Of a DNA stretch of 64,000 nt, positions 10,733 to 58,641 are shown piece by piece. This stretch comes from Frigoribacterium sp. Leaf263. GTDB lineage: Bacteria; Actinomycetota; Actinomycetes; Actinomycetales; Microbacteriaceae. Both the position numbers and the translations under genes were made by a program. The stretch covers positions 1-64,000 of the forward strand of contig NZ_LMMO01000001.1 of assembly GCF_001422285.1 (NCBI RefSeq), written 5' to 3'. Numbering within the stretch: position 1 is the stretch's first letter; every line of letters begins with the position of its first letter. The notes under the pieces are model-generated. The model was not told the origin of the DNA. It saw only the letters and a list, made by a program, of their open reading frames with translations, and ran no database searches.

Positions 10733-12229
10733 ATGAGCATCAGCACCGCCGTGTCCGATCAGCTGCCCCCGATGCGCCGCCGTCGCACCCGCGTCGGTCT
10801 CGTCGCCGGCGGTCTCGGCACCTACTGGCCGCAGTTCCCCGGGCTGCTGCCCCAGCTGCAGGAGTCCACCCGCTACGTCGCCGACCGCTTCGGGAGTCTC
10901 GACGCCGAGGTGATCGACACCGGCTTCATCTCGGACGCCCAGGAGGCGCGGGTCGCCGCCGACACGCTCCGCACCGCCGACTGCGACCTCATCGTCGTCT
11001 TCCTGACCACGTACCTCACCTCGTCGATGGTGCTCCCGATCGCGCAGCGCGCGGGGGTGCCGGTGCTCGTGATAGACCTGCAGCCGACCGAGAGGATGGA
11101 CCACGACCGCTTCGACACCGGACTCTGGCTGGCGTACTGCGGCCAGTGCCCGGTGCCCGAGGTCGCCAACGTGTTCCGCCGGGCCGGCATCGAGTTCCGG
11201 TCTGTCACGGGGCACCTGCGAAGCGAGCGCGCCTGGCGGCGCATCGAGCGCTGGGTGCACGCCGCCGGAGTCAGGGCGAGACTGAGGGAGGCGCGGCACG
11301 GCCTCATGGGTCACCTCTACCCGGGCATGCTCGACGTCTCGACCGACCTGACGCTGCTGTCGACGCACTTCGGCTCGCATGTCGAGGTGCTCGAGTTCGA
11401 CGACCTGCGGGTGCGCGTCGACGCCGTCACCGACGCCGAGGTGCGCGACCGCGTGGCCCTGGCCCGCGAGGTGTTCGAGGTCGACGCGTCGGTCGACCAG
11501 GAGGACTTCGACGGGGGCGCCCGCGTCTCTGTCGGGCTCGACCGGCTCGTGGCCGACTTCGACCTCGACTCGCTGGCCTACTACCACCGGGGTCTCGAGG
11601 GCGAGCAGCACGAGAGGCTCGGTGCCGGCATGATCCTCGGCGCCTCTCTGCTGAATGCCCGCGGTCTGCCGGCGGTGGGGGAGTACGAGCTCCGGACGTC
11701 GGTCGCGATGCTGGCCGCGCAGGCGCTCGGCGTCGGCGGCTCGTTCACCGAGATCCAGGCGATCCACTTCGACGACGGCGTGGTCGAGATGGGGCACGAC
11801 GGGCCGGCGCACCTGGCGATCTCGTCGTCGCGGCCGATCCTCCGCGGCCTGGGGGTCTTCCACGGCAAGCGCGGCTACGGCGTGAGCGTCGAGTTCGACG
11901 TGCAGCCCGGGCCCGTCACGACCTTCGGCCTCGGGCAGGACCGCGACGGCGCGCTGTCGTTCGTCACGAGCGAGGGCGAGGTCGTGCCCGGCCCGCTGCT
12001 CCGGATCGGCAACACGACGTCGCGCGTCGACTTCGGCGGGGACCCGGGCGAGTGGGTCGACGAGTGGTCGCGCACCGGCATCGGGCACCACTGGGGGCTC
12101 TGCGTCGGGCACGTCGCTCGGGACGTCGCGGCGGCGGCGTCGCTGCTCGGCATCGACCACCGGCACGTGTCGGCCCCCTTCGACGACGCCGACGGGTTCG
12201 AGCGGAGTCTCGGGTCGACGCTCCCCTGA
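10733..12229 (+). CDS. L-arabinose/L-fucose isomerase-family protein
   Basis: 498 residues. It opens VGLVAGGLGTYWPQFPGLLPQL and has the AraA/FucI fold pattern: YLTSSMVLPIAQRAGVPVLVIDLQP, an extended middle domain, GLPAVGEYELRTSVAMLAAQALGVGG (conserved acidic residue before the active site) and GIGHHWGLCVGH near the C-terminus, where histidines bind the catalytic metal. Family enzymes interconvert aldoses and ketoses. Since a dedicated rhamnose isomerase follows, this may serve another deoxy- or pentose sugar, or be a second isomerase. It sits after the rhaS terminator and before the rhaM promoter, without a clear promoter of its own. Confidence 0.75.
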   Translation: MSISTAVSDQLPPMRRRRTRVGLVAGGLGTYWPQFPGLLPQLQESTRYVADRFGSLDAEVIDTGFISDAQEARVAADTLRTADCDLIVVFLTTYLTSSMVLPIAQRAGVPVLVIDLQPTERMDHDRFDTGLWLAYCGQCPVPEVANVFRRAGIEFRSVTGHLRSERAWRRIERWVHAAGVRARLREARHGLMGHLYPGMLDVSTDLTLLSTHFGSHVEVLEFDDLRVRVDAVTDAEVRDRVALAREVFEVDASVDQEDFDGGARVSVGLDRLVADFDLDSLAYYHRGLEGEQHERLGAGMILGASLLNARGLPAVGEYELRTSVAMLAAQALGVGGSFTEIQAIHFDDGVVEMGHDGPAHLAISSSRPILRGLGVFHGKRGYGVSVEFDVQPGPVTTFGLGQDRDGALSFVTSEGEVVPGPLLRIGNTTSRVDFGGDPGEWVDEWSRTGIGHHWGLCVGHVARDVAAAASLLGIDHRHVSAPFDDADGFERSLGSTLP

Positions 12230-12235
12230 GACCGC

Positions 12236-12286
12236 TTGCCGGGTGTGGCGGCACTTGCTACGCTCGCTGTATTGAAACGATTCAAT
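12236..12286 (+). promoter_or_regulatory. Promoter and LacI operator of rhamnose catabolic operon
   Basis: -35 TTGCCG (12236-12241), 17 bases, -10-like TACGCT (12259-12264). The operator ATTGAAACGATTCAAT (12271-12286) has 6-base arms around ACGA and covers the expected start point. Its core is identical to the operator before the transporter operon. Confidence 0.8.
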
Positions 12287-12306
12287 GACGAACCGGAGAC
12301 CCAGAG

Positions 12307-12819
12307 ATGACCGCCGACGAGCACGAGCGCTACGCGTTCCGCCTCCAGGTCGCACCCGAGCGGCTGACCGAGTACACCCGCCGGCACGCCGAGGTCTGGC
12401 CCGAGATGCTCCAGGCGCTGCACCACAGCGGGTGGCGCTCGTACTCGCTCTTCGCCGCCCCCGACGGGCTGCTGATCGGCTACGTCGAGGCCGGATCCCT
12501 CGAAGCCGCGCAGGTCGCCATGTCCGAGACCGAGGTCAACGCCCGCTGGCAGGCCTCGATGGCCGAGTTCTTCACCTCGCTCGACGGCACCCCGCCCGAT
12601 GAGGGCTTCGAGCCGCTCACGCAGGTCTTCAACCTCGAGGCGCAGCTCGGCCTGCCGGGCGGCGGTCGCTACGCAGCCCCGAAGCCCACCGCGACACCAC
12701 CGACCGCTGCGACACCACCGACCGCTGCGACACCACCGACCGCTGCGACACCACCGACCCCGGCGTCATCGACGACGCCCGGCGACACCACGATCACGAT
12801 CACGGAAGAGACCTCATGA
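12307..12819 (+). CDS. rhaM: L-rhamnose mutarotase with a repetitive C-terminal tail
   Basis: 170 residues. The first ~115 residues are a normal RhaM (YAFRLQVAPERLTEYTRRHAEVWPEM, HHSGWRSYSLF, WQASMAEFF), which converts alpha- and beta-L-rhamnose. His29 in the RRHAEVWPEM segment lies in the conserved active-site region. Family members usually end near residue 105-115; this one continues with a ~55-residue Pro/Thr/Ala tail made by an 18-base tandem repeat (ATPPTA). It is the first gene after the operator and overlaps rhaI by four bases. Confidence 0.9.
   Translation: MTADEHERYAFRLQVAPERLTEYTRRHAEVWPEMLQALHHSGWRSYSLFAAPDGLLIGYVEAGSLEAAQVAMSETEVNARWQASMAEFFTSLDGTPPDEGFEPLTQVFNLEAQLGLPGGGRYAAPKPTATPPTAATPPTAATPPTAATPPTPASSTTPGDTTITITEETS
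12691..12759 (+). repeat. 18-base tandem repeat in the 3' part of rhaM
   Basis: Unit GCGACACCACCGACCGCT, three exact copies (12691-12708, 12709-12726, 12727-12744) plus 15 bases of a fourth. It encodes the hexapeptide ATPPTA. As the period is a multiple of three, copy number can change without frameshift. Confidence 0.95.
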
Positions 12820-13979
12820 CCACCTTCGAGTCCATCGCCCCCACGCTCGAGCGTCAGGCCATCGAGCTGCCCAGCTGGGCGTTCGGCAACTCGGGCACGC
12901 GATTCAAGGTCTTCGGCACCCCGGGCACGCCCCGCACCGCCGAAGAGAAGATCGCCGACGCCGCGACCGTCCACGAGCACACGGGCCTCGCCCCGAGCGT
13001 CGCCCTGCACATCCCGTGGGACGAGGTCGACGACTTCACGGCCCTCCGCTCGTTCGCCTCCGATCACGGCGTCGCGCTCGGCACGGTGAACTCGAACACC
13101 TTCCAGGACGACGCGTACAAGTTCGGCAGCCTCGCCCACAGCGACGCGTCGGTGCGACGCAAGGCGATCGACCACCACCTCCGCTGCCTCGAGATCATGC
13201 GCGAGACCGGGTCGCGCGACCTCAAGATCTGGCTCGCCGACGGCACCAACTACCCCGGCCAGGACAGCCTCCGCCAGCGTCAGGACCACCTCGCCGAGTC
13301 GCTCGCCGAGATCTACGCCGGGCTCGACCCCGAGCAGCGCCTCGTGCTCGAGTACAAGTTCTTCGAGCCGGCGTTCTATCACACCGACGTCCCCGACTGG
13401 GGGACCAGCTACGCCCAGGTCTCGGCGCTCGGCGACCAGGCGCTGACCTGCCTCGACACCGGGCACCACGCGCCCGGCACGAACATCGAGTTCATCGTCA
13501 TGCAGCTGCTGCGCCTCGGCAAGCTCGGCTCGTTCGACTTCAACTCGCGCTTCTACGCCGACGACGACCTCATCGTCGGCGCGGCCGACCCGTTCCAGCT
13601 GTTCCGCATCCTGTTCGAGGTCGTCGACGGCGGCGGACTCGACGAGGGCTCTCCCGTCCAGTTCATGCTCGACCAGTGCCACAACGTCGAGGACAAGATC
13701 CCCGGCCAGATCCGCAGCGTGCTGAACGTGCAGGAGATGACGGCGCGCGCCCTGCTCGTCGACCGGCCCGCGCTCGACGCCGCCCGAGCCTCCCACGACG
13801 TGCTCGGCGCCAACGCCGTGCTGATGGACGCCTTCTACACCGACGTCCGCCCCGCCCTGGCCGACTGGCGCGAGGGCCGGGGTCTGCCCCGCGACCCGAT
13901 GGCGGCCTACCTCGCCAGCGGCACCCCGGAGCGCCTCGCCGAGGAGCGCGTCGGCGGCAGGCAGCTCAGCTGGACCTGA
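12816..13979 (+). CDS. rhaI: L-rhamnose isomerase (actinobacterial RhaI type)
   Basis: 387 residues with a xylose-isomerase-like TIM barrel: WAFGNSGTRFKVFGTPGTPR at the N-terminus, KIWLADGTNYPGQ, then metal-site candidates in LVLEYKFFEPAFY, CLDTGHHAPGTNIEF and FDFNSRFYADDDL. It converts L-rhamnose to L-rhamnulose. The length and motifs match the RhaI group of Pseudomonas and actinobacteria rather than E. coli RhaA. ATGA overlap with rhaM implies coupled translation. Confidence 0.93.
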   Translation: MTTFESIAPTLERQAIELPSWAFGNSGTRFKVFGTPGTPRTAEEKIADAATVHEHTGLAPSVALHIPWDEVDDFTALRSFASDHGVALGTVNSNTFQDDAYKFGSLAHSDASVRRKAIDHHLRCLEIMRETGSRDLKIWLADGTNYPGQDSLRQRQDHLAESLAEIYAGLDPEQRLVLEYKFFEPAFYHTDVPDWGTSYAQVSALGDQALTCLDTGHHAPGTNIEFIVMQLLRLGKLGSFDFNSRFYADDDLIVGAADPFQLFRILFEVVDGGGLDEGSPVQFMLDQCHNVEDKIPGQIRSVLNVQEMTARALLVDRPALDAARASHDVLGANAVLMDAFYTDVRPALADWREGRGLPRDPMAAYLASGTPERLAEERVGGRQLSWT

Positions 13980-14025
13980 GCCGCCGCTCCGGCAGCAGCC
14001 GATCCGCAGCCGACCCGCTCGACAC

Positions 14026-14039
14026 GACCCGCGCCTCCT
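14026..14039. repeat. Intergenic copy of the 14-base dispersed word
   Basis: GACCCGCGCCTCCT between rhaI and the aldolase gene, followed by CGGGGG. One of twelve exact copies in the window; see findings. Confidence 0.8.
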
Positions 14040-14065
14040 CGGGGGCCCAGACAGAAGACGGACCC

Positions 14066-16111
14066 ATGACCACGACCACCTCCACCGCCGCGGCCGACCT
14101 CATCGCCCGCAGCAACCGACTCGGGGCCGACCCCCGGGTGACGAACTACGCGGGCGGCAACACGTCGGCCAAGGGCACCGCCGTCGACCCCGCCACCGGC
14201 GAGCCGGTCGAGCTGCTCTGGGTCAAGGGCTCGGGCGGCGACCTCGGCACGCTGACCGGGTCGGGCCTCGCGGTGCTCCGCCTCGACCGGCTCCGCGGGC
14301 TCGCGGGGGTCTACCGCGGGCCCGAGCACGAAGACGAGATGGTCGCCGCGTTCGACTACGCGCTGCACGGCAAGGGCGGGGCCGCCCCCTCGATCGACAC
14401 GGCCATGCACGGTCTCGTCGACGCCGCGCACGTCGACCACCTGCACCCCGACAGCGGGATCGCCATCGCGACGGCCGCCGACGGCGAGCGACTGACGGCC
14501 GAGATCTTCGGCGGGCGCGTCGTCTGGGTCCCGTGGCGCCGCCCCGGCTGGCAGCTCGGGCTCGACATCGCCGCGATCAAGGCCGAGAACCCGGAGGCGA
14601 TCGGCACGATCCTCGGCGGTCACGGCATCACGGCCTGGGGCGACACGAGCGACGAGGCCGAGGCGAACTCGCGCTGGATCATCGAGACGGCCGAGGCGCA
14701 CATCGCCGAGCACTCGCGCGTCGACCCGTTCGGCCCCGCGCTCGACGGGTACGCCGCGCTGCCCGAGTCCGAGCGCCGCGCCCGCGCCGCCGCCCTCGCC
14801 GCCACGATCCGCGGACTCGCCTCGCACGACGCTCCGCAGGTCGGCCGATTCAGCGACGACCCCGCCGTGCTCGAGTTCCTCGCGAGCGCCGAGCACCCCC
14901 GGCTCGCCGCGCTCGGCACGAGCTGCCCCGATCACTTCCTCCGCACGAAGGTGACGCCGCTGCTGCTCGATCTGCCGGCGACCGCCTCCGTCGACGAGTC
15001 CATCGGGCGCCTCCGCGAGCTGCACGCGCAGTACCGGCTCGACTACCAGGCCTACTACGACCGTCACGCGACGCCCGACAGCCCGGCCATCCGCGGGGCC
15101 GACCCGCTCATCGTGCTCGTGCCCGGCGTCGGCATGTTCTCGTTCGGCAAGGACGCGCAGACCGCGCGGGTCGCGGGCGAGTTCTACGTCAACGCGATCA
15201 ACGTCATGCGCGGTGCCGAGGGGCTCTCGACGTACGCGCCGATCGACGAGGCCGAGAAGTTCCGCATCGAGTACTGGGCCCTCGAGGAGGCCAAGCTCAA
15301 GCGTCTGCCGGCGCCCCGGCGCCTCGCCACCCGCATCGCGCTGGTCACCGGCGCCGCGTCGGGCATCGGGAAGGCGATCGCGACGCGTCTCGCCGCCGAG
15401 GGGGCCTGCGTGGTCGTCGCCGACCTCGATCTCGCGAAGGCGCAGGCCGCGGCGGCCGAGATCGGCGGGCCCGACGTGGCACGCGGCGTCGCGGCGGACG
15501 TGAGCGACGAGGCGGCCGTCAAGACCGCGATCGACGAGGTGCTGCTCGCGTTCGGCGGCCTCGACCTGGTCGTCAACAACGCCGGGCTCAGTCTGTCGAA
15601 GTCGCTGTTCGACACCACCGAGGCCGACTGGGATCTCCAGCACGACGTCATGGCGAAGGGCTCGTTCCTCGTCGCGAAGAACGCCGCGCGGGTGCTCGTC
15701 GACCAGGGGCTCGGCGGCGACATCGTCTACATCTCGTCGAAGAACTCGGTCTTCGCGGGCCCGAACAACATCGCGTACAGCGCCACGAAGGCCGATCAGG
15801 CGCATCAGGTGCGACTGCTCGCCGCCGAGCTGGGCGAGCACGGCATCCGGGTCAACGGCATCAACCCCGACGGGGTCGTGCGGGGCTCGGGCATCTTCGC
15901 CAGCGGCTGGGGCGCCAACCGGGCCGCGACCTACGGCATCGACGAGCAGGATCTCGGCGCCTTCTACGCCCAGCGCACCATCCTGAAGCGCGAGGTCGTG
16001 CCCGAGAACGTCGCCGCCGCCGTCTTCGCCATCTGCACGAGCGACTTCTCGCACACGACCGGGCTGCACGTGCCGGTCGACGCGGGCGTCGCCGCGGCCT
16101 TCCTCCGATGA
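14066..16111 (+). CDS. rhaEW: Bifunctional rhamnulose-1-phosphate aldolase / short-chain dehydrogenase
   Basis: 681 residues in two domains. Residues ~1-410 are a class II aldolase (NYAGGNTSAKGT; zinc histidines in HVDHLHPDSG and GGHGITAWG). Residues ~425-681 are a short-chain dehydrogenase (VTGAASGIGKAIA, NNAGLSLS, YSATKAD with the catalytic Tyr near residue 571, Lys four further on). The first half cleaves rhamnulose 1-phosphate to DHAP and L-lactaldehyde. In the characterised RhaEW type the second half oxidises lactaldehyde to L-lactate. The ATG at 14066 is preceded by ACAGAAGACGGACCC, a weak ribosome site. Confidence 0.92.
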   Translation: MTTTTSTAAADLIARSNRLGADPRVTNYAGGNTSAKGTAVDPATGEPVELLWVKGSGGDLGTLTGSGLAVLRLDRLRGLAGVYRGPEHEDEMVAAFDYALHGKGGAAPSIDTAMHGLVDAAHVDHLHPDSGIAIATAADGERLTAEIFGGRVVWVPWRRPGWQLGLDIAAIKAENPEAIGTILGGHGITAWGDTSDEAEANSRWIIETAEAHIAEHSRVDPFGPALDGYAALPESERRARAAALAATIRGLASHDAPQVGRFSDDPAVLEFLASAEHPRLAALGTSCPDHFLRTKVTPLLLDLPATASVDESIGRLRELHAQYRLDYQAYYDRHATPDSPAIRGADPLIVLVPGVGMFSFGKDAQTARVAGEFYVNAINVMRGAEGLSTYAPIDEAEKFRIEYWALEEAKLKRLPAPRRLATRIALVTGAASGIGKAIATRLAAEGACVVVADLDLAKAQAAAAEIGGPDVARGVAADVSDEAAVKTAIDEVLLAFGGLDLVVNNAGLSLSKSLFDTTEADWDLQHDVMAKGSFLVAKNAARVLVDQGLGGDIVYISSKNSVFAGPNNIAYSATKADQAHQVRLLAAELGEHGIRVNGINPDGVVRGSGIFASGWGANRAATYGIDEQDLGAFYAQRTILKREVVPENVAAAVFAICTSDFSHTTGLHVPVDAGVAAAFLR

Positions 16112-24686: not shown

Positions 24687-25787
24687 GTGTCTGCCCGCAC
24701 GAATCGCTCGTCGTCCCGTCTCCGCCACCCGCGCCTCCTCGGCTCGGTGGCTCTCTCCGCCGTCGCGCTGATGGCGCTCGCCGCCTGCGCCTCGGCGCCC
24801 ACGTCCGAGGCGGACCCCGCCTCGACCGACTCGACGCACTGCTCGCGCATGGTCACGAACTCGGGTGGCCTCGACGACCGCTCGTTCAACCAGTCGAGCT
24901 GGGCCGGGCTGCAGAAGGCCGAGAAGGAGGACGGCATCGCGGCCGAGGTGCTCGTCTCGACCAACGAGACCGACCTCGCCCCGAACGTCGCGCAGGCGGT
25001 GTCGTCGGGGTGCGGCTTCGTGCTGACCGTGGGCTACGAGCTCGCGCCGGCCACCGAGGAGCAGGCCGCCGCGAACCCCGACATCGACTTCGCGATCGTC
25101 GACGAGACCGTCGAGGGCGACAACGTCAAGCCGATCGTGTTCGACACCGCCCAGGCGTCGTACCTCGCGGGCTACCTCGCGGCGGGGGTCTCGAAGACCG
25201 GCACGGTGGCGACCTTCGGCGGCGGCAACCAGCCCCCGGTGACCCTGTTCATGGACGGCTTCTCCGATGGCGTCGACGCGTACAACGAGGCGCACGGCAC
25301 GACCGTCGCGCTGCTCGGGTGGGACAAGGAGGCGCAGGACGGCTCGTTCACCGGCGACTTCGAAGACGTCAACAAGGGCAAGCAGCTGGCGCAGGCGCTC
25401 ATCGACCAGGGCGCCGACGTGATCATGCCGGTGGCGGGTCAGGTCGGCGAGGGGGCCGCGTCGGCGGCGCTCGACGCGGGCGACGTCTCGGTGGTCTGGG
25501 TCGACAACGACGGGTACGACACGCTGCCCGCCGAGTACCGCCCCATCCTGCTGACCTCGGTCATCAAGGACACCGAGCAGGCCGTCCAGGACATCGCGAT
25601 CTCGTCGGCCGACGGGTCGTTCACGAACGAGCCGTACGTCGGCACGCTCGACAACGACGGCGTCGGCCTCGCACCGTTCCACGACCTCGAGTCGTCGGTG
25701 CCCGCCGAGCTGAGCGGCGAGCTCGACGCCCTGCGTGCCGACATCGTCAGCGGCGCCGTGACGGTGGAGTCGCCGAGCGCTCCGTAG
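24687..25787 (+). CDS. BMP/PnrA-family substrate-binding lipoprotein (probable nucleoside uptake)
   Basis: 366 residues. Signal peptide ending in lipobox LAAC (Cys34), then the BMP fold: MVTNSGGLDDRSFNQSSWAGLQKAEKE, ISSGCGFVLTVGYELA-like region, FDTAQASYLAGYLAAGVSKTG, GGGNQPPVTLFMDGFSDGV. Members bind purine nucleosides or related ligands for an ABC importer; no permease genes lie nearby, so it must use distant partners or act as a sensor component. AGGAGGT ends six bases before GTG 24687. There are 116 bases of spacer after the response regulator. Confidence 0.87.
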   Translation: MSARTNRSSSRLRHPRLLGSVALSAVALMALAACASAPTSEADPASTDSTHCSRMVTNSGGLDDRSFNQSSWAGLQKAEKEDGIAAEVLVSTNETDLAPNVAQAVSSGCGFVLTVGYELAPATEEQAAANPDIDFAIVDETVEGDNVKPIVFDTAQASYLAGYLAAGVSKTGTVATFGGGNQPPVTLFMDGFSDGVDAYNEAHGTTVALLGWDKEAQDGSFTGDFEDVNKGKQLAQALIDQGADVIMPVAGQVGEGAASAALDAGDVSVVWVDNDGYDTLPAEYRPILLTSVIKDTEQAVQDIAISSADGSFTNEPYVGTLDNDGVGLAPFHDLESSVPAELSGELDALRADIVSGAVTVESPSAP

Positions 25788-25839
25788 GCCGCCTCAAGGA
25801 CTCGTTCTCAGCCTTCAGGAGGAGCGGCGCAGCAGAGTC

Positions 25840-25961
25840 TTGACCGCAAGACATAACGATCGGTAGCGTTTCGCGTGTCGCACTCAGGGTGCGGCCTGGG
25901 AATCCGACTGACGAACCGCATCGGCTCTCGCTGCGCTCGCGGTTCATTCGAGGTGTTGTTC
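25840..25961 (+). promoter_or_regulatory. Promoter and structured leader, copy 1
   Basis: -35 TTGACC (25840-25845), 18 bases, -10 TAGCGT (25864-25869). Leader of about 85 bases. Hairpin 1: CGCAC/GTGCG (25879-25883 with 25889-25893). Hairpin 2: GAACCGC/GCGGTTC (25913-25919 with 25939-25945). Ribosome site GAGGT (25950-25954) before GTG 25962. It aligns throughout with copy 2 at 27845-27969, with compensating changes in hairpin 1. Confidence 0.75.
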
Positions 25962-26873
25962 GTGATCCTGCCACGCCGAACGATGTCGAGGGCGGTCCTC
26001 GGCGTAGCCGTCGGTGTCTGTCTGGTCGGTCTGTCCGCCTGTACGAATTCATCGGTGCACGAGGCCGATCTGCCGCTGCCCGAGAAGAATCGGCATCGGT
26101 GGCTGTTGCCGCTCGACCAGTACCAGTGGCCGCTCGTCGATCCTGTCTCCGATGCAGAACAGGTCATCGTCGCATCGTGCCTTTCAAAGGTCGGATATGA
26201 ATGGCGCGTCGTACCGACTGAGGACGGGGCGAGTCCGCAGGAGTCCTGGAGCGACGCCGGCCGCAAACTCTTCTCCGTCGAACTCGCAGAGAAATACGGC
26301 TACGGGAATTCTCCGATGCTGGATCAGGCCCCAGCGCGTATGGACGCGGACCGCGCGAACCGCGCGGTCTCGCAACAGCACCCTGAGGCAGTCGACGCAT
26401 GTTTTGAAGAGGCTGCTCCAATTCTCGGCATCGTGGACGGTTCTGCGTACGACTTGGCTCAACAGATCGGCAACCTCGCTTACGCCGAAGCAGAACAAGC
26501 TGTCGAGGTCCGCGATGCCGCAAGCGACTGGCGAACGTGCATGAAGGATGCTGGCCTGCCCGATCTGCCCGATGTGCCCGAGGAGATGCCCCCGGCGTCG
26601 GTCGACACGGGCGACGACGGCGATGGCATCGATGCTCCCTTCCGAACCGGCGACGAACTCGACGTGCCCGCCGAAGTGCGTCGCGTCGCTGTCGCCGATG
26701 CCACCTGCCGAGACTCCACCGGCTACACGTCGACGTTCTACGACGCGGAGTGGGATGCCCAGGTAGAAGCCATGGGCTCCAGAATCGATGTTCTCGAGCG
26801 TTTCAAGCAGCAGGCCGAAGAGCAGCGTGCTCTCGCCGAGAGGTATCTCGCAGAGAATGCCGTCTCGCAGTGA
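25962..26873 (+). CDS. Four-cysteine lipoprotein, paralog 1
   Basis: 303 residues with lipobox LSAC (Cys27). The mature part opens with a PLDQYQWPLVDP segment, followed by a CLSKVGYEW motif, GRKLFSVELAEKYGYGNS, a second cysteine (DACFEEAAP), WRTCMKDAGLPDLPDVPEEMPP, ATCRDSTGYTS, and a charged C-terminal helix likely to form a coiled coil. Four non-lipobox cysteines are conserved in all three paralogs here. GTG 25962 fits GAGGTG upstream; ATG 25983 is possible but would shorten the signal sequence. I know no function; similar proteins with a YGYG motif occur beside peptidoglycan-binding/ABC export genes in other actinobacteria. The next gene overlaps by four bases. Confidence 0.72.
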   Translation: MILPRRTMSRAVLGVAVGVCLVGLSACTNSSVHEADLPLPEKNRHRWLLPLDQYQWPLVDPVSDAEQVIVASCLSKVGYEWRVVPTEDGASPQESWSDAGRKLFSVELAEKYGYGNSPMLDQAPARMDADRANRAVSQQHPEAVDACFEEAAPILGIVDGSAYDLAQQIGNLAYAEAEQAVEVRDAASDWRTCMKDAGLPDLPDVPEEMPPASVDTGDDGDGIDAPFRTGDELDVPAEVRRVAVADATCRDSTGYTSTFYDAEWDAQVEAMGSRIDVLERFKQQAEEQRALAERYLAENAVSQ

Positions 26874-27787
26874 GGAAACGATCACGATTCGCCCTGCTCG
26901 TTCCCGCCGCGGTGGTCGCGTCGGCGGCCCTTGCGGGGTGTGCGACCGCTGCTGTCCAGGGTGCGGACCTCGACCTGCCCGCAAAGAACCAGTCCCAGTG
27001 GCGACTTCCGCTCGATCAGTACCTGCTGCCGCTCATCGACGTCGAGTACGACGCCCAGCAGGTGTTCGTCCACAAGTGCATGGCTGAGGCTGGGCGCGAG
27101 TGGGTGGTCCGTCTCGACCCTCCGGGCACCACGACCGGCGAGTCCTGGAACGCTGCGGGCCGCAAGCTCTTCTCAGTCGAGCTCGCCGAAACGTACGGCT
27201 ACGGGAACTCCGGCCAGATCGCGAGATCGCCGGAGGCTGAACAGGCTTGGCTCAATGGCGAGAGATCCAGACGGGCTGTGGCTGAACAGGCGCCGGAAGC
27301 CGCCGAGGGTTGTTTCGAGCAGAGCACGGCAGTCCTGGACGATGAACCGAGTTGGCAGGTCTACGACCTGGCGATGGAGATCGCGGGTGGCGCCTCGGGT
27401 GATGCGCAAGAGTTTCCGGAGGTCGAAGAGGCGGCCTCTCGATGGCGCGAATGCATGGCCGACGCAGGGCTCCCCGACCTTCCGGCCGTGCCTGAAGAGA
27501 TGCCACCGGCATCTGTCGATGACGGAGGTGGCCCGGCCATCGACGCGCCGTACTCGGTCGGCGACGAATTCGACGTCTCCGCGGAGGAGCGCCGGGTGGC
27601 GGTCGCGGATACGACGTGTCAGGACTCCTCGGGTTATGCGAGCGCCCTGTACGACGCGGAGTGGGAGGCGCAGGCCGAAGCCATGGAGTCGCATGCGGAC
27701 GACCTCGTGCGGTACGGAGCGCAGCTCGAGGAGCAACGCGCACGCGCAGAGTCGTACCTCGCCGAGAACACCCCGGAGGCTCGATGA
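26870..27787 (+). CDS. Four-cysteine lipoprotein, paralog 2
   Basis: 305 residues, lipobox LAGC (Cys24). It is clearly paralogous to the gene before it: PLDQYLLPLIDVEYDAQQVF, KCMAEAGREW, GRKLFSVELAETYGYGNS, EGCFEQST, WRECMADAGLPDLPAVPEEMPP, TTCQDSSGYASALYDAEWEAQAEAM. GTG 26870 overlaps the previous stop (GTGA), so the two are translationally coupled. A tandem duplication is the simplest origin. The base composition is less GC-rich than flanking housekeeping genes, pointing to horizontal acquisition. Confidence 0.72.
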   Translation: MRKRSRFALLVPAAVVASAALAGCATAAVQGADLDLPAKNQSQWRLPLDQYLLPLIDVEYDAQQVFVHKCMAEAGREWVVRLDPPGTTTGESWNAAGRKLFSVELAETYGYGNSGQIARSPEAEQAWLNGERSRRAVAEQAPEAAEGCFEQSTAVLDDEPSWQVYDLAMEIAGGASGDAQEFPEVEEAASRWRECMADAGLPDLPAVPEEMPPASVDDGGGPAIDAPYSVGDEFDVSAEERRVAVADTTCQDSSGYASALYDAEWEAQAEAMESHADDLVRYGAQLEEQRARAESYLAENTPEAR

Positions 27788-27844
27788 GACCCGGGGTCGA
27801 GCCCGACGTGCCACGGGAGGTGCAGCATCCGACCCAACGTGTCG

Positions 27845-27969
27845 TTGACAGTTATGCATATCGGTTGTTAGTGTTTAATCTGCCACCTTGAAGGGTGGTC
27901 TTGGGCACCGTCGAACGAACCGCAACGGTCCTCTTGCGGTACTGGCGGTTCGTTTAGAGGTCCTACTTC
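27845..27969 (+). promoter_or_regulatory. Promoter and structured leader, copy 2
   Basis: -35 TTGACA (27845-27850), 18 bases, -10 TAGTGT (27869-27874). Hairpin 1: CCACC/GGTGG (27883-27887 with 27894-27898). Hairpin 2: AACGAACCGC/GCGGTTCGTT (27914-27923 with 27945-27954). A competing 7-base pairing ACCGCAA/TTGCGGT (27919-27925 with 27934-27940) excludes hairpin 2, so the leader could switch. GAGGT (27957-27961) precedes ATG 27970. Confidence 0.78.
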
Positions 27970-28374
27970 ATGGCTAGATCAAGCCGACCGATTCTCAGCG
28001 CCCTAATCGCGCTTGGGATTCTCTCCTCCTCCGTCATCATGGCCGCACCAGCCTCGGCGGCGCCCAGTGGATGCTCCACGCGGGGGCACGGATGCACGTA
28101 CGAGGATTCCGGCTACCGCGGCGGCCGTATCAACTTCTATGAGTACGTACGAAACTTCAAGGACGTCTGGCAATGGGGCGGAACGAACCATTTCCTGACC
28201 AACGACTCGGCCTCCTCTGGCTTCAACAACGGGACCACGAATCGCGTCGTCAAGTGGTTCGATGACGCGAACTATCAGGGCCCTCGTAAGACCGCGGCCC
28301 CGCAACGAGGGCTCAATTTCGGTACGTCCAACGACAAGATCTCCTCGGCGTGCTTCGAGGGCTACTGCAAGTGA
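27970..28374 (+). CDS. Secreted small protein, peptidase inhibitor I36-like (beta-gamma crystallin type)
   Basis: 134 residues. A Sec signal peptide (hydrophobic 8-25, cleavage after ASA at ~30) precedes a ~104-residue mature protein. GCTYEDSGYRGGRINFYEY, then WFDDANYQGPRKTAAPQRGLNF look like two Greek-key motifs of the kind in the I36 inhibitor/beta-gamma crystallin group; cysteines 35, 42, 128 and 133 could form two disulfides. Known I36 members inhibit metalloproteases, but many homologs have no tested activity, and a toxin or bacteriocin role cannot be excluded. It has its own promoter and structured leader and overlaps the next lipoprotein (GTGA). Confidence 0.72.
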   Translation: MARSSRPILSALIALGILSSSVIMAAPASAAPSGCSTRGHGCTYEDSGYRGGRINFYEYVRNFKDVWQWGGTNHFLTNDSASSGFNNGTTNRVVKWFDDANYQGPRKTAAPQRGLNFGTSNDKISSACFEGYCK

Positions 28375-29285
28375 AGCGCCCCTCGATCAGGTGGTCGAGC
28401 GTCGTGGTCGTCATCGGGACATCCCTGAGCCTCGTCGCATGCACCGAAGACCCGGTCGACGACTCCGTCGTTCTCACCGAGAAGGATCGCGCATCGTGGA
28501 GTCTCCCGCTCGACCCGTACCAGAGGCCTCTCGTCGATGTCGTCGCCTCCGCGCAGGATGCGTTCATCCAAGACTGCATGGGGGACTCGGGGGTTCTGTG
28601 GAAGGTCGCACCGACCGAGCGCGAGGCGGCTGTCGGTGAATCGTGGAACCCGGTCGGACGAAAGCTCTTCTCCATCGAACTCGCGAGCGAATACGGCTAC
28701 GGGAACTCATCGGAGATCGCACGATCTGTCGCCGCGCAACGAGCGATGTACGAAGCCGAGTCAGCGAACAGGAGCTTGCCCGAGAGCGCCCATGCGGTCT
28801 TCGATCGGTGCCTCGCGGACTCTCGGGAGATGACGAATGAGGCTTCGGGGCGCGGCTCATACGAATTGGCGGAGCAGCTCGCGGGAGTGGCCTACGGTGA
28901 CGCGAAGGCTGATGACGATGTCGAGGCGGCGGCGTCTCGATGGCGCGGATGTCTCCGTGAAGCCGGTGTGCCGGATCTCCCACGATCACCCGATCAGATG
29001 CCCCCTGACTCGATCGCGGGGCTGAGGGGGTCCAATGTCGATGGCGCGGACGCTTCCGGCGAGGATGAACCCGTCCCTGCGGAGGAGATACGCCTCGCCG
29101 TCGCCGATGCCGCCTGTCGCGAGTCGGTCGCGTACGCCAGCGCCCTCTACGAGGCTGAATGGCAGGCGCAGGCGGAGGCTGTGGCGGCACGGGCCGATGA
29201 TCTGAGCCGCTACAAGCGACAGATCGACGACGAACGGGCGCGAGCCGAGGCGTACCTCGCTGAACACGCCGCCGATGCGCGATGA
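28371..29285 (+). CDS. Four-cysteine lipoprotein, paralog 3
   Basis: 304 residues, lipobox LVAC (Cys24). Same order of motifs as paralogs 1 and 2: PLDPYQRPLVDV, DCMGDSGVLW, GRKLFSIELASEYGYGNSS, DRCLADSRE, WRGCLREAGVPDLPRSPDQMPP, AACRESVAYASALYEAEWQAQAEA. It is the most diverged of the three. GTG 28371 overlaps the stop of the I36-like gene, so both proteins should be made together. This pairing suggests the lipoprotein handles, binds or neutralises the secreted protein (inference). Confidence 0.72.
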   Translation: MKRPSIRWSSVVVVIGTSLSLVACTEDPVDDSVVLTEKDRASWSLPLDPYQRPLVDVVASAQDAFIQDCMGDSGVLWKVAPTEREAAVGESWNPVGRKLFSIELASEYGYGNSSEIARSVAAQRAMYEAESANRSLPESAHAVFDRCLADSREMTNEASGRGSYELAEQLAGVAYGDAKADDDVEAAASRWRGCLREAGVPDLPRSPDQMPPDSIAGLRGSNVDGADASGEDEPVPAEEIRLAVADAACRESVAYASALYEAEWQAQAEAVAARADDLSRYKRQIDDERARAEAYLAEHAADAR

Positions 29286-30591
29286 CAGCCCATCGAGCGG
29301 CAGCACGGGTGCGAACTTGACCCTCATCCGTTCCCGCAAGACCCTCGCCGTCGGCGGAAGTGCGGCGATCGTCGCGCTCCTCGCCGGCGGCTGGGGGCTG
29401 GCCCACGCGTTCGAGTCGCCCGCCCAGCGCGAGGCGGCCGCGACCGCCCCGTCGCCGCTCCCGGTGACGAGCGAGGTCCGAGTCGGCGACCTCACACGCC
29501 GCATCACCTTCCAGGCGACGGTGGGTCGCACCGGCCTCATGTCCGTCGCGCTGCCCGCCCCGGCGGCCGAGCCTGCCTACGTGACCGGGAAGCCCACGTC
29601 GGCCGGTGCCCCCGTCACCGCAGGCCAGGTCGTCACCGAGGTCAACGGCCGCCCGGTGTTCGCCGTCACCGGCGCCTTCCCCTTCTACCGCGAACTCCGC
29701 CGAGACCACACGGGCCCCGACGTGCGACAACTGCAGACGGCCCTGCGCGATGCCGGCATCCCCACGACCGTCGACGGTGTGTTCGGCGCCGGTACCGAGC
29801 GATCGCTGGCGGCGCTCTACTCTCGGGCCGGACACGCGCCTCCCACCGAGGTCGCCATCGAGGAAGACCGGGGCGTCCCCGGTACAGACGCCACCCCCGG
29901 CACGGGCGCGGCCGTCGACGCGACCGGCGCACAACCCGCACCGGTGGGCACCCCTGCACCCTCATCGAGCGCCGGCTCCGCTCCCTCCGCAGCGGACACG
30001 AGCGACACCGAGGCGACCTCCGACCGCCCCATCAGGCGTCGAGTGGTCGCCTCGCCGTCCGAGTTCGTCGTCGTCCCGACCCTCCCGGCCGTCGCGGCCG
30101 AGACGCCGGCCGTCGGAACCGCCGCCAGCTCCGAGGTCCAGCTCCGCCTGGAGTCCGGCCGCCTGCGCGTGACCGCCGATGTTCCCGTGCTCATCGCCGA
30201 GACCCTGATCGAGGGCTCCACCGGCACCTTCTCCGCTCCCGACGGCGCGACCACGCCGATCACGCTCGAGACCGTCGTGCCCGGGGGCGACGACGATGCC
30301 GAGTCCCGCGTGATCCTCGACGCGGCTGACGGTGAGCTCGCGGCCGACCTGCTCGGAGCGGAGGGCCTCGTCGCCCTCGACATCGAGACCGTGCAGACCG
30401 GGAGCCTCATCGTCCCCACGGTCGCGGTCGCCGGTGGTGGATCAGGTGAGGCGCACCTCCTCGTCGAAGAGGACGACGGGACCTTCCGTCGCATCCCCGT
30501 CATCGAGACCGGCCAGCTCGACGGCGAGAGCGCCGTCGAGCCGACGGACCCCGACGACCTCGCCGAGGGCGACCGCGTGCGGGTCGACTGA
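29275..30591 (+). CDS. Peptidoglycan-binding export adaptor (HlyD/MFP-like)
   Basis: 438 residues. One N-terminal membrane anchor (about 24-43), a stretch resembling membrane-fusion-protein lipoyl/hairpin regions (EVRVGDLTRRITFQATVGR, VTAGQVVTEVNGRPVF), a PG_binding_1 domain at ~141-187 (GPDVRQLQTALRDAG, VDGVFGAGTERSLAALY), a long Ala/Pro/Ser/Thr spacer, then a C-terminal beta-barrel region. Such proteins pair with MacB-type ABC transporters in actinobacteria and are thought to link the exporter to the cell wall. The ATG at 29275 overlaps the lipoprotein gene by 11 bases; the ABC gene follows with one base shared. Confidence 0.8.
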   Translation: MRDDSPSSGSTGANLTLIRSRKTLAVGGSAAIVALLAGGWGLAHAFESPAQREAAATAPSPLPVTSEVRVGDLTRRITFQATVGRTGLMSVALPAPAAEPAYVTGKPTSAGAPVTAGQVVTEVNGRPVFAVTGAFPFYRELRRDHTGPDVRQLQTALRDAGIPTTVDGVFGAGTERSLAALYSRAGHAPPTEVAIEEDRGVPGTDATPGTGAAVDATGAQPAPVGTPAPSSSAGSAPSAADTSDTEATSDRPIRRRVVASPSEFVVVPTLPAVAAETPAVGTAASSEVQLRLESGRLRVTADVPVLIAETLIEGSTGTFSAPDGATTPITLETVVPGGDDDAESRVILDAADGELAADLLGAEGLVALDIETVQTGSLIVPTVAVAGGGSGEAHLLVEEDDGTFRRIPVIETGQLDGESAVEPTDPDDLAEGDRVRVD

Positions 30592-32744
30592 TGGCCCTGC
30601 TGCAGCTCCGCGGGGTCGGACGCACGTTCTCGGGCGCGGTCGAGGTCGCCGCCCTCGACGACGTCACCCTCGACATCGAGGCGGGCGAGTTCTTCGCCAT
30701 CATGGGCCCCTCCGGCGGCGGCAAGTCCACACTGCTCAACACCGTCGGTCTGCTCGACCACCCCACCACCGGCACGTACACGATCGCCGGTCACGACATC
30801 GATGGATCGACCTCGCGTCACCTCGCGGAGACACGATCCGAGACCTTCGGCTTCGTCTTCCAGGGCTTCCATCTGCTCGACCAGCGACCCGTCCGCGACA
30901 GCGTCGAGCTCGGCCTCCTCTACCGCGCCGTGCCGGCCGCCGAGCGTCGCGTCCTCGTCGACGACGCGCTCGCCCGCGTGGGGCTCGACGGGCTCGGCGA
31001 CCAGCTCGCCGCGAAGCTCTCCGGCGGCCAACGTCAGCGGGTCGCCATCGCCCGGGCGCTGGCCGCCGGCACCCCCGTCATCGTCGCCGACGAGCCGACC
31101 GGCAATCTCGACTCCGAGAACGGCGCGCTCGTCGTCGAGACCCTCCTCGCCCTCCGCGACGCGGGCACGACGGTCGTCCTCGTCACCCACGACCCGACCG
31201 TCGCCCGCGCGGCCGATCGTGTCGCGCACCTCCGCGACGGGCGCATCGAGTCGGTCGACCCGGCCGGACCGGTCGGACAGGCCGGACAGGTCGAGTCGGT
31301 CGAACCTGTCCCGGTCGAGCCGGTCGAGCCGGTCGAGCCGGTCGAACCGGTCGAACGGGTCGAGTCGGCCCCGGCCGGTGCCGGCGCGGTCGCCGCAGGG
31401 GATCTCGCGGTCACGACCGGCGCGACCGGTGCGCGGCGGACGACCCGCGCCTCCTCGGCTCCCGCGCCGACGGGCTCAGGAGGCGCGGGTCGGCGACCCG
31501 AGAGACCGGGCCGCCCGTCGCGCCTCCGGTTCCGCGACCTCGCCGTCGACGCCCTGCGCTCGGTCACCTCGCGGCTGGGCAAGACCGCGGGCCTCGTGGC
31601 CGCCGTCGCCGTGGCGGTGGCGCTCGCCGTCGCCAGTCTCGGGCTCTCGGCGTCGGCGCGCGCCCAGGTCGGCGACACCTTCGATCTGCACACCAACCGC
31701 GACGTCGGGGTCTCGTGGGACTCCCCGGTGGACCCGACCGCCGAAGGGGAGGCTCCGGGGGCGATCGGCGGGGGCGCGGTCGTCGCTCCGTTCGGGAGCC
31801 CCGCGGCCGCGGCCGATGTGGCCGGCAGGCTCGCCCGGGTCGCGGCGCTCAGCGGGGTCGAGTCGGTCGGGGCTCTGCACGAGCGGGGCTCGGCCGTCGT
31901 CCGGGCGACCACCATGCGCGACGCCCTGCAGGCACCGGTCGTGAGCATCGAGGGGGACCTCCTCGCGGCCGCCCGCGTCGACGTCGAGTGGCTCGCCCGC
32001 CACGGCCCGACGCTCGGCGAAAGGGAGGTGCTGATCGGCCGCGGTCTCGCCGCTCAGCTGCCCCTCGGTCCGCTCGCCGCGGCGCCCGTCGTCACCCTGG
32101 GCGACACCGAGGTCGCCGTCGTCGGCATCGTGGACGACTCGCCGCGCGTGCCGAGCCTCGTCGGAGCCGTGACGACCGGGGCGCACTCCCTGGCGGGAGT
32201 CGAGAACCCCTCCCAGACGTCCGTGCTGATCCGGACCGGTGCGGGCGCGGCTCAGCAGGTCGCCCGGCAGGCGCCGGTCGCCATCGATCCCGTCGCCGCC
32301 GAGACGTTCCGGATCGATGCCCCGATCGACCCGACCACCCTCCGCGCCGAGATCGAGTCGGACGTCGCGTCCACCCTGCTGGCCTTCACCGGGGTGGCGC
32401 TCCTCGCGGCCGTGGCGGGTCTCGGCAACTCGATGGTGCTCGCCGTCCTCGAACGGCGCAAGGAGCTCGGTCTGCGCCGAGCGCTCGGCGCCCGCCCCGG
32501 TCACATCGCCGGGCTCGTGCTCGCCGAGTCCGTGGTGATCGGCGCCCTCGGCGGACTGCTCGGGCTGGCGCTCGGACTCGGGGCGTTGCTGGTGATGACC
32601 ATCGCCCGGCAGTGGATCCCCGTCTTCGATCTGCGTCTCGCACCCGCCGCACTCGTGGGCGGAGTCGTCGTCGGTGCGGCCGGCGGGCTCATCGCGGCCT
32701 GGCGGGCGAGCCGCATCGAGCCGCACGAGGCGCTCCGCCTCTGA
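30591..32744 (+). CDS. MacB-like ABC transporter, ATPase fused to FtsX-type permease
   Basis: 717 residues. Residues 1-225 form a LolD/MacB-type ATPase: Walker A GPSGGGKST (38-46), FQGFHLLDQRPVRDSVELGL, signature LSGGQRQRVAIARAL, Walker B VIVADEPTGNLDS. A repetitive linker (PVEPVEPVEPVEPVERVE) leads to an FtsX/MacB permease with one membrane helix near 335, a large extracellular domain, and three helices at the C-terminus (VALLAAVAGLGNSMVLAVLERRKE... EPHEALRL). These exporters act on substrates outside the membrane together with an adaptor, here the preceding gene. Substrate unknown; the I36-like protein or the lipoproteins are candidates. Confidence 0.87.
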   Translation: MALLQLRGVGRTFSGAVEVAALDDVTLDIEAGEFFAIMGPSGGGKSTLLNTVGLLDHPTTGTYTIAGHDIDGSTSRHLAETRSETFGFVFQGFHLLDQRPVRDSVELGLLYRAVPAAERRVLVDDALARVGLDGLGDQLAAKLSGGQRQRVAIARALAAGTPVIVADEPTGNLDSENGALVVETLLALRDAGTTVVLVTHDPTVARAADRVAHLRDGRIESVDPAGPVGQAGQVESVEPVPVEPVEPVEPVEPVERVESAPAGAGAVAAGDLAVTTGATGARRTTRASSAPAPTGSGGAGRRPERPGRPSRLRFRDLAVDALRSVTSRLGKTAGLVAAVAVAVALAVASLGLSASARAQVGDTFDLHTNRDVGVSWDSPVDPTAEGEAPGAIGGGAVVAPFGSPAAAADVAGRLARVAALSGVESVGALHERGSAVVRATTMRDALQAPVVSIEGDLLAAARVDVEWLARHGPTLGEREVLIGRGLAAQLPLGPLAAAPVVTLGDTEVAVVGIVDDSPRVPSLVGAVTTGAHSLAGVENPSQTSVLIRTGAGAAQQVARQAPVAIDPVAAETFRIDAPIDPTTLRAEIESDVASTLLAFTGVALLAAVAGLGNSMVLAVLERRKELGLRRALGARPGHIAGLVLAESVVIGALGGLLGLALGLGALLVMTIARQWIPVFDLRLAPAALVGGVVVGAAGGLIAAWRASRIEPHEALRL
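31442..31491. repeat. Inverted pair of the dispersed 14-base word in the ABC linker
   Basis: GACCCGCGCCTCCT (31442-31455) and its exact complement (31478-31491) lie 22 bases apart in the linker-coding part of the ABC gene. They are read in different codon frames (TRASS and GGAGR). The pair could form a 14-base stem in DNA or RNA. Confidence 0.8.
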
Positions 32745-45750: not shown

Positions 45751-46003
45751 CCCGCGCCTCCCCGGCTCCCGCCTCGCTGGTGGCAGAGGCCGTGGTGGCT
45801 CTCACCCTCTGGGTGCGCGGTGACATCCCCACGGATCGCCTCATCTTCGAGGTCGAGCGATGCGCCCACGTCCGGTTCTCTGACGACAGGCGGAATGAGC
45901 ACTCTCCTGCGGACTCGTCGACACGGTCGCCGTCTCTGCGCAGCTCGCCAGGCGATTCTTCTCGTGCTGCTCTGACCCCATCCCGTCTGGGTGTGCGGTC
46001 GTG
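45751..46003. other. 253-base spacer, possible gene remnant
   Basis: No convincing gene. A plus-strand frame stays open from the amidase stop (LVAEAVVALTLWVRGDIPTDRLIF...) but has no ribosome site and no family I recognise. Composition shifts here from strongly GC-rich to more mixed, and it marks the start of the accessory block. A one-base variant of the 14-base word lies at the amidase stop (45748). Confidence 0.4.
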
Positions 46004-46441
46004 TCAGTCGGCGTGACCATCGATGATCGCGGTGACGCGGATCTCGACGCGCATTCCGGGGAGCCCGAATGCGGGTGCCCCGATCTGGGTCCAGGTGGGT
46101 CTGCGTTCGCCCATGCGCTGGCGCAGTCGAGCCACCATCAGTCGTGTGTCCTCCGATCCGATCACGCCCCCGTCGGGGAGGTGGAACGAGATGACGTCGA
46201 TGACGTCGTGCCAGCTGGCCCCGGCGGTCGCGAGAGTCCGTTCGACGTTGTGGAACGCGCGGTCGATCTGCTGTTCCAGGGTGTCGGCGATCACCATGTC
46301 GTCGTCCCATCCTCCCTGGCCGGAGGTCTCGACGCGCTGGCCGATCCGGACGGCCTGAGACGCGTGCACCGTGTGTCGTGCCGTATCTCCGTAACCCGGA
46401 GTGGCGAAGAACTGCGGGATTCTGTCACTCGATCCGGTCAT
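46004..46441 (-). CDS. RidA family (YjgF-like) protein
   Basis: 145 residues: HASQAVRIGQRVETSGQGGWDDD, QIDRAFHNVERTLATAGASWHDVIDVISFH, RPTWTQIGAPAFGLPGMRVEIRVTAI with the arginine that binds the substrate carboxylate. RidA proteins hydrolyse reactive enamines/imines; this longer subgroup often accompanies oxidoreductases. Only seven bases separate it from the aldo/keto reductase upstream, so both should form one operon behind the HTH regulator gene. Confidence 0.86.
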   Translation of the reverse strand: MTGSSDRIPQFFATPGYGDTARHTVHASQAVRIGQRVETSGQGGWDDDMVIADTLEQQIDRAFHNVERTLATAGASWHDVIDVISFHLPDGGVIGSEDTRLMVARLRQRMGERRPTWTQIGAPAFGLPGMRVEIRVTAIIDGHAD

Positions 46442-46448
46442 CGGATGC

Positions 46449-47429
<981 letters not shown>

Positions 47430-47529
47430 GAGCAGGTGCTTCTTTCGGTGATGGGCGTGTTGATGACGTGGGGAGAGGACGCAGCGGAGTCGATCGCGTC
47501 GGCGGGGAAGTCATCCGCTGCCGAGGGCA

Positions 47530-48426: not shown

Positions 48427-48458
48427 GAGTCGAACCTACGACGAGGCACGACTGACAA

Positions 48459-48537
48459 AGGGGTCCTCTTGATGACCCCCTCGGAGCGTCGCACGCCGTG
48501 CAGCATGCCTTTCTAGGGGGGTCTCACGCGGGCCCCT
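48459..48537. promoter_or_regulatory. Candidate operator region for MmyB-like regulator 1
   Basis: Inverted repeat GGGGTC-N8-GACCCC (48459-48478), and a G-rich block AGGGGGGTCTCACGCGGG at 48515-48532, continuing CCCCT to 48537. The block resembles AGGGGGGTTCTCGCAGGG at 51456 in the other regulator's divergent spacer. Confidence 0.5.
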
Positions 48538-48604
48538 CTCCCGAAGCCGCCGATGCCTACCGTCGAATCCGTCGCGAGGTACGCGACGACAGGAGAGGAA
48601 CACA

Positions 48605-49366: not shown

Positions 49367-49406
49367 CCTCATCCCATCCCGCCACACCGACAGGAGGACA
49401 CATTCC

Positions 49407-50462: not shown

Positions 50463-50485
50463 GCCGGTCTCGTCACGACCCTCGC

Positions 50486-50523
50486 GTGCGGCCCGCCATG
50501 ACCATCGTCCGGGCGGGCCGCAC
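50486..50523. terminator. Hairpin between convergent aldo/keto reductase and regulator genes
   Basis: Perfect 12-base arms GTGCGGCCCGCC (50486-50497) and GGCGGGCCGCAC (50512-50523), 14-base loop, between two converging genes. Probable two-way terminator. Confidence 0.75.
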
Positions 50524-50546
50524 CCGCTTCTGCGTCTTCGTCCGCG

Positions 50547-55228: not shown

Positions 55229-55298
55229 GTGAGTTCTCCGAGTGGTGAGGGAGGGGAGACGAGCGGGGGAGGAGATGCTGGCGCTCTCGGCGCCGGTG

Positions 55299-57157: not shown

Positions 57158-57221
57158 GGTGCTGCTCCTCGTCGTCGGGCGTCGTCCGGTGCGGTGGGTG
57201 GTCAAGTGGGTGTCGGTGCGG

Positions 57222-58478: not shown

Positions 58479-58566
58479 AGGAGGTTCCTCTCTGAACTGC
58501 TGCGGGTGCTCCATCAGAGGGCCCGGCAGGTGCAGCACAGGGCGCTCATCGTCGAGAGCAACGAGA

Positions 58567-58638
58567 CCGAAACTGGTTTCGGGAGTGAAGTTACACGGCA
58601 CGCAGTTGCCCGTCAATGCCCAAGTGAACTAATTTCGG
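58567..58638. promoter_or_regulatory. Divergent promoters and two LacI operators of the GH127 locus
   Basis: Minus-strand promoter: TTGACG (58616-58611), 17 bases, TAACTT (58593-58588). Operator CCGAAACTGGTTTCGG (58567-58582), 7-base perfect arms, covers its start point. Plus-strand promoter: TTGCCC (58606-58611), 18 bases, TAATTT (58630-58635), overlapped by a degenerate operator GAACTAATTTCGG (58626-58638). The two -35 boxes overlap at 58611. Confidence 0.8.
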
Positions 58639-58641
58639 TAC

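Follow-up and report, generated by a model that had tools for sequence, protein, structure and literature searches.

What function could unite three paralogous lipoproteins, a small secreted protein, a wall-binding adaptor and a MacB-type exporter whose genes are packed end to end? This question is raised by positions 25962-32744 of the window, i.e., the stretch of 64,000 nucleotides from Frigoribacterium sp. Leaf263 (contig NZ_LMMO01000001.1, positions 1 to 64,000) that was analysed here. A preliminary description of this DNA had proposed a secretion or defence cassette and had likened its layout to bacteriocin/immunity units. We conclude that the module is real and that it is more general than had been stated. 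We further consider it somewhat probable that the cassette is a bacteriocin-type operon making, exporting and protecting against a small secreted protein. This reading is favoured because homologous adaptors stand behind true Lactococcin_972 genes and because the unit formed by the secreted protein and its neighbouring lipoprotein appears to be swappable.

Gene content of the cassette

Our reading of the open reading frames (ORFs) of the window places six tightly coupled genes on the forward strand, in the order LP1-LP2-cargo-LP3-adaptor-ABC, where LP denotes a lipoprotein with four cysteines and the cargo is the I36-like secreted protein. LP1 spans 25983-26873 from an ATG start, or 25962-26873 from the GTG start chosen in the preliminary description, and overlaps LP2 (26870-27787) by 4 bp. 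A gap of 182 bp, compatible with two transcription units, separates LP2 from the cargo gene (27970-28374), which is immediately followed by LP3 (28371-29285) with an overlap of 4 bp. LP3 in turn overlaps the adaptor gene (29275-30591) by 11 bp, and the latter overlaps the ABC gene (30591-32744) by 1 bp. The content, order and coupling described earlier, with overlaps of 1 to 11 bases including that of the I36-like gene with LP3, were all recovered. The 11-bp overlap depends on the choice of start, because the adaptor ORF of the sister genome G686, as called, begins 34 bp past its second lipoprotein gene (gene calls in the loci of relatives come from ORF scripts, not annotation). A consensus scan of 25700-29400 detected neither a sigma-70-type promoter nor a terminator.

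The cargo is a protein of 134 aa with a signal peptide, an I36/beta-gamma-crystallin domain, four cysteines and the motifs NDSASS and NDKISS. It matches PF03995 over the Pfam cut-off (2.3e-6) and is the sole such match found in the 3.24-Mb host assembly. The I36 label given earlier stands to this extent; the protein is, from its sequence features, better read as a beta-gamma-crystallin domain than as a protease inhibitor. Both motifs fit N/D-N/D-x-x-S/T-S, which passages of PMC3551895 describe as the calcium-binding motif of the beta-gamma-crystallin fold. A profile of four cargo proteins matched only spherulin 3a (two chains) among solved structures at E<=1, and the conserved positions of the cargos include the calcium-type motifs and the cysteines. 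Such motifs were present at least once in 20 and at least twice in 13 of 29 cassette cargos, as compared with 3.5% and none of 2000 shuffled sequences; these 29 comprise the window's cargo and those of 28 cargo-LP pairs with the cargo upstream on the same strand (27 LPs, one LP of L033 being counted twice; the cargo of L096 is partial), and some of the loci were picked for I36, so that the figures do not constitute a rate.

As described earlier, the three lipoproteins are paralogs (LP1 is 54% and LP3 44% identical to LP2) and have in common the GRKLFS-ELA-YGYGNS block and four cysteines besides those of their lipoboxes (LSAC, LAGC and LVAC). An alignment of 14 LPs, three of them from the window, left the four cysteines, P-x-D, GY, W..C and a C-terminal A..D..C block invariant. 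No family was reached in Pfam or NCBIfam, and the LP was annotated as 'hypothetical protein' where an annotation was seen.

The adaptor carries PG_binding_1 at residues 146-180 (4.5e-5), its only Pfam match over the cut-off; its membrane anchor, position and layout resemble MacA by eye, and it has no match to a Pfam adaptor family and none in PDB at E<=0.1. The ABC protein fuses an N-terminal ABC_tran ATPase to a C-terminal FtsX permease (Pfam), which is the architecture of a MacB-type exporter, and its best PDB chains are MacB. The ATPase and permease are joined by a linker of Pro-Val-Glu repeats (VEPVEPVEP; 31290-31370), and the protein is 717 aa long here and 680 aa long in the sister. A phage-defence role, suggested by the earlier notion of a defence cassette, finds no support and was set low, since only the ABC protein matches PADLOC models: it matches seven, via its ATPase or permease regions (best mad3, 3.9e-31, in the ATPase region), and none of the other five cassette proteins matches a model at E<=0.01.

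The block had also been called AT-richer than its surroundings. This holds for LP1-3 and the cargo gene (GC content of 0.60-0.67) and not for the adaptor and ABC genes (0.74-0.75). The same split appears on average across 17 cassettes (GC at third codon positions, Wilcoxon p 0.004), in a comparison where it is not present in every cassette and two pairs share one pump. Two more stretches of lower GC content (0.67-0.69) lie at 46000-51000 and 55000-59000 of the window.

Recurrence of the cassette and its parallel in Lactococcin 972 operons

LP homologues were detected in at least 19 of 299 genomes of the host family and at least 39 of 396 genomes of the order (E<=1e-8), and in at least 5 of 396 genomes of a phylum sample (E<=1e-10), with the host genome counted each time. 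These counts are lower bounds: G401, for example, possesses five LPs (L230) and is absent from the order-search matches. All 26 places outside the window were examined for the family search, and the strongest rows with some weaker ones for the order search. After removal of the near-identical loci L089, L098, L108 and L128, this gave 57 loci, whose classes were assigned by hand and five of which (L154-L156, L107 and L109) came from searches of the phylum and of plasmids or from named contigs. Seventeen of them lie behind a histidine kinase and/or response regulator gene and show no cassette partners. The other 40 present an I36-type gene in 21 cases and an adaptor and/or ABC gene in 27 (both in 13, either in 35, neither in five). 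The neighbourhood analysis proposed in the preliminary description therefore reveals a recurrent module, and homologues without I36 or ABC genes, which it had named as evidence to the contrary, form a minority made up of the 17 two-component-linked loci and five of the remaining 40. A description of this operon was not found in the open-licence PMC literature, subscription papers being outside the scope of that search.

In most loci the I36 gene precedes the LP in the same orientation, and the two frequently overlap; other arrangements are seen in L087 (divergent), L238 (I36-adaptor-ABC-LP) and one of the units of L033. Using an adaptor profile built from LP-linked adaptors, an LP match was found to adjoin the adaptor in 25 of 30 adaptor loci (one per genome, 30 of 74 rows), and other cysteine-rich lipoprotein ORFs without an LP match stand by the adaptor in L292, L293 and L295. 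The slot before the LP is not reserved for I36: L094 and L095 have a secreted PG_binding_1 protein there, the small secreted ORF at this place is unassigned in L239, L277, L292 and L293, and L279 shows an SH3-like protein below the cut-off.

Several further arrangements were observed among the LP homologues. In three distant genomes (L154, L230 and L243), a single adaptor/ABC pair is accompanied by five LP genes. In L103 (7383-8326), the LP between the I36 gene and the pump reads as two ORFs and appears broken. A plasmid search returned two weak matches, one linked to a two-component system and one being an I36-LP pair of Nonomuraea. A fourth LP homologue of the host assembly (G000:C4:47130-48005; L031:7086-8018) lies behind histidine kinase/response regulator genes, an arrangement that recurs in the host family (L031, L041-L055, L155). 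These two-component-linked homologues keep the four cysteines and mostly lack a recognisable lipobox; they are possibly accessory sensors.

A search with PF09683 yielded 28 Lactococcin_972 loci in 22 of 199 genomes of the host family, of which L331 and L332 are near-identical. An adaptor homologous to that of the window stands downstream on the same strand in 15 of the 28 (1.5-kb flank), with E-values of 2e-9 to 3e-25, a range that also takes in L310. A lipoprotein ORF with four cysteines after its lipobox (five in one case, as called) separates the Lactococcin_972 gene from the adaptor in 12 of the 15, and our script found no lipoprotein ORF at this place in the other three. An ABC ATPase lies directly downstream of 14 of 15 such adaptors; this count comes from a renewed search of 13 genomes, with one adaptor of G028 located beyond the earlier 1.5-kb flank and G128 outside that search. 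In L310, the order is Lactococcin_972 (PF09683 at 5.6e-8, over the cut-off, and TIGR01653 below its cut-off), lipoprotein, adaptor, ATPase and an ORF that looks like a permease by eye. L094 has a PG_binding-LP-LP-adaptor-ABC set and, about 4.5 kb before it and in the same orientation, a Lactococcin_972 gene; region 11370-14294 of this locus encodes the Lactococcin_972 protein (PF09683, 3.1e-6), a protein of 631 aa and an ABC ATPase. The family search gave no PF09683 match for the host genome and three other listed members of the genus, and a Frigoribacterium genome paper, in the part drawn on here, lists a lactococcin 972 family cluster in the genus (PMC12823222). The bacteriocin resemblance is therefore stronger than could be known from the window, because in the host family itself Lactococcin_972 genes are followed by homologous adaptors and an ABC ATPase.

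Turnover of the cargo and its lipoprotein

The site between the BMP lipoprotein and nitrilase genes was compared across 16 genomes of the genus. It contains a cassette in two of them, the two genes lie 165-222 bp apart in three, one other gene is present in four, and the neighbour is a different one in seven. At the same site, the sister G686 presents the order cargo'-LP1'-LP2'-adaptor-ABC. The window retains the leader and first nine codons of an I36-type gene corresponding to cargo' (25962-25988, forward strand; VILPRRTMS here and MILPRQTLS in the sister), fused to the signal region of LP1. This leader (25838-25960) resembles both the leader of the cargo gene (27843-27965) and that of the sister's cargo', with promoter hexamers recognised by eye only. 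Since the leader and nine codons persist, cargo' was probably deleted in the lineage of the window while LP1 and LP2 were retained; a gain of cargo' in the sister would be a less parsimonious explanation. The adaptor of the window is preceded by LP3 and a different cargo.

Divergence at synonymous sites (dS) from the sister is uneven along the locus: it reaches 1.8 for the cargo and 0.53 for LP1, with values of 0.16-0.41 for the histidine kinase, response regulator, BMP, LP2, adaptor and ABC genes. LP1-LP2 match the sister at about 89%, and LP3 is close to neither of its LPs. A comparable pattern is visible within G028, where two tandem units are near-identical in the 5' part of the cargo gene and the 3' part of the LP gene, the sequence that spans the junction being divergent. 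The 3' halves of these LPs differ by 1 synonymous and 0 nonsynonymous changes in 151 codons, and the 5' halves by about 50 synonymous and 78 nonsynonymous changes in 124 codons. Judging from these sequence comparisons, we read the locus as a case of cassette turnover with retained partner genes, in which the I36-LP unit looks like an exchangeable cassette.

The histidine kinase, response regulator and BMP genes upstream were considered as cassette members and dropped: the BMP gene is present in 16 of 16 genus genomes and response regulator or histidine kinase ORFs adjoin it in the cassette-less G678, G298 and G035, so that all three are judged to lie outside the cassette.

A dyad, GAACCGC...GCGGTTC, occurs 5' of LP1 inside its leader (25913-25945) and again 5' of the cargo gene (27917-27951), both on the forward strand, with a further copy in the sister locus (L107, 6631-6663). 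Among 246 loci, it was present only in the stretches of the host genome and of the sister. RNA folding beat shuffled sequences for one of the three leaders; the dyad is therefore treated as DNA conservation, and its reading as an RNA leader was dropped.

Competing readings and comparison with known systems

Several results weigh against a bacteriocin-type operon. Adaptor and/or ABC genes occur without I36 in 14 of the 40 loci, two of which have a PG_binding_1 protein in the cargo position. Among 20 adaptor loci with longer flanks, a clear LP match was found in 14, a marginal one in one and none in five. In the order sample, an LP lies directly downstream of 16 of 71 PF03995 matches; the other 55 (three of which sit in the same cassette in another arrangement) indicate that I36 domains have other uses. 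Only 1 of 13 Lactococcin_972 loci of the order sample has the adaptor nearby, and the window's cargo does not match PF09683 or TIGR01653 at E<=1. The structural models add little: that of the LP is all-helical with low confidence (predicted local distance difference test, pLDDT, of 59) and has no PDB fold match at E<=0.001, and the AlphaFold2 (AF2) model of the cargo, computed from a four-row alignment, gave no usable fold (pLDDT 39) in which a double Greek key could be recognised. There is no sign of an arms race either, as dN/dS is at most 0.40 wherever it can be computed, the 3' block of the G028 cargo being saturated. Finally, across 17 cassettes (L103 and one L033 pair excluded), Mantel tests gave r 0.58 for cargo and LP distances versus r 0.68 for cargo and ABC distances; specific cargo-LP coevolution was not significant after removing pump distance (partial Mantel r 0.16, p 0.08).

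The lipoproteins of the two operon types must be counted on the same side. Long LPs and Lactococcin-operon lipoproteins gave a profile similarity of 3.7%, not significant, when signal peptides were removed (a comparison that could use 10 of the 11 short and 48 of the 82 long proteins), versus 55% with signal peptides and 76% in an earlier set of five proteins; all 10 short lipoproteins ranked above the sole reversed sequence listed in the comparison without signal peptides. Homology between these lipoproteins and those of the window, suggestive with signal peptides, is thus unsupported without them, and what the two operon types have in common is the adaptor and ATPase rather than demonstrable lipoprotein descent.

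Could the LP, adaptor and ABC protein instead detoxify foreign wall-active peptides, as a YknWXYZ- or Bce-like pump with the I36 protein as secreted decoy or sensing partner? The 14 loci with pump genes and no I36 would fit this explanation, the LP homologues behind histidine kinase/response regulator genes in 17 of 57 loci would suit sensing, and YknXYZ is protective according to excerpts of PMC5985334. We regard it as unlikely, however, because members of a genuine bacteriocin family, accompanied by the same adaptor, also occupy the slot before the lipoprotein, and because the absence of a cargo with retention of its LPs suits immunity more than a decoy. More doubtful again is a reading of the cargo as a structural or adhesive protein that binds calcium and is placed in the wall by the pump and lipoprotein. 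Two or more calcium-type motifs in 13 of 29 cargos, the window's included, and the PG_binding_1 proteins found in the slot in L094 and L095 are in line with such a role, whereas the patchy presence of the cassette (2 of 16 genus genomes), the turnover of its units and the LP arrays would be unusual for a structural protein, and Lactococcin_972 follows the same operon plan.

Inhibition of extracellular metalloproteases, the known activity of SMPI, is suggested for the cargo by its PF03995 match over the cut-off. This seems highly improbable to us: spherulin 3a was the sole solved structure matched, the calcium-type motifs and cysteines are among the conserved positions, and, as an argument only, a protease inhibitor would have no need for a pump and a lipoprotein array.

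For the bacteriocin-type operon, the toxicity, target, immunity and export direction that we infer can be put as follows. The cargo would be exported by the Sec pathway, fold on the far side of the membrane, where disulfides and probably calcium would stabilise it, and target the wall of related bacteria or act within it. The lipoproteins, located on the external side of the producer's membrane, would bind it, either for self-protection or to hand it over to the pump, or both. The MacB-type ABC protein and the peptidoglycan-bound adaptor may then push the cargo outwards or keep it off the producer's membrane. This last step is drawn by analogy: excerpts of PMC5985334 report that MacB-type proteins perform mechanical work outside the membrane, that MacAB-TolC exports a Sec-delivered disulfide toxin and that YknXYZ shields its host from SDP. 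For the beta-gamma-crystallin-type fold, there are precedents in a yeast killer toxin (known here from a reference title in PMC12715866) and in MiAMP1 (in the passages used of PMC7886984).

We also put forward, more tentatively, a broader proposal. Actinomycetota may possess a class of secreted antibacterial beta-gamma-crystallins, each with a four-cysteine immunity lipoprotein that loads a wall-anchored MacAB pump. Blocks spanning the cargo tail and the LP head would be swapped, old LPs would be kept as an immunity memory, and cargos as unrelated as I36, Lactococcin 972, PG-binding proteins and further small secreted proteins would use one exporter chassis. If true, a widespread gene set with a 'hypothetical' lipoprotein would become a readable antibacterial system with interchangeable cargo, bacteriocins would extend to another protein fold and an unassigned lipoprotein family could be named. 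Two questions would also become testable, namely the role of a MacAB-type pump in a one-membrane cell and the means by which producers of wall-acting bacteriocins are protected from them.

Several known systems resemble parts of the cassette. Polymorphic toxin/immunity systems likewise show cassette turnover with retained partner genes, but a long carrier protein with a variable tip is not part of the window's cassette, and lipoprotein immunity is exceptional among them (Imm65 only, in the portion of PMC3482391 consulted). The cargo has PF03995 in common with SMPI and peptidase inhibitor family I36, from which it differs by its calcium-type motifs and pump context, inhibition by the cargo being putative; its two N/D-N/D-x-x-S/T-S motifs and its resemblance to spherulin 3a are features of microbial beta-gamma-crystallins. 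MacAB, YknWXYZ and Spr0693-0695 also place a MacB-type ABC gene beside an adaptor gene (in passages of PMC5985334), whereas the adaptor of the window has PG_binding_1 and adaptors of its kind usually have an adjoining lipoprotein gene. Lactococcin 972 operons likewise start with a small secreted cargo, which in members of the host family is followed by a lipoprotein with four cysteines, an adaptor homologous to that of the window and an ABC ATPase. Lcn972 itself, a binder of lipid II, has a signal peptide of the Sec type (excerpts of PMC7248182 and PMC9964109). These operons differ in that their cargo belongs to PF09683 instead of I36/beta-gamma-crystallin, their lipoproteins measure about 200-240 aa versus about 300 aa in the window, as called, and most have ATPase-sized ORFs where the window has a fused ABC protein. 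Since its cargo falls outside PF09683 and TIGR01653, the cassette is placed outside the Lactococcin 972 family, and its gene arrangement suggests that it is best filed as an operon that works like those of the Lactococcin-972 type.

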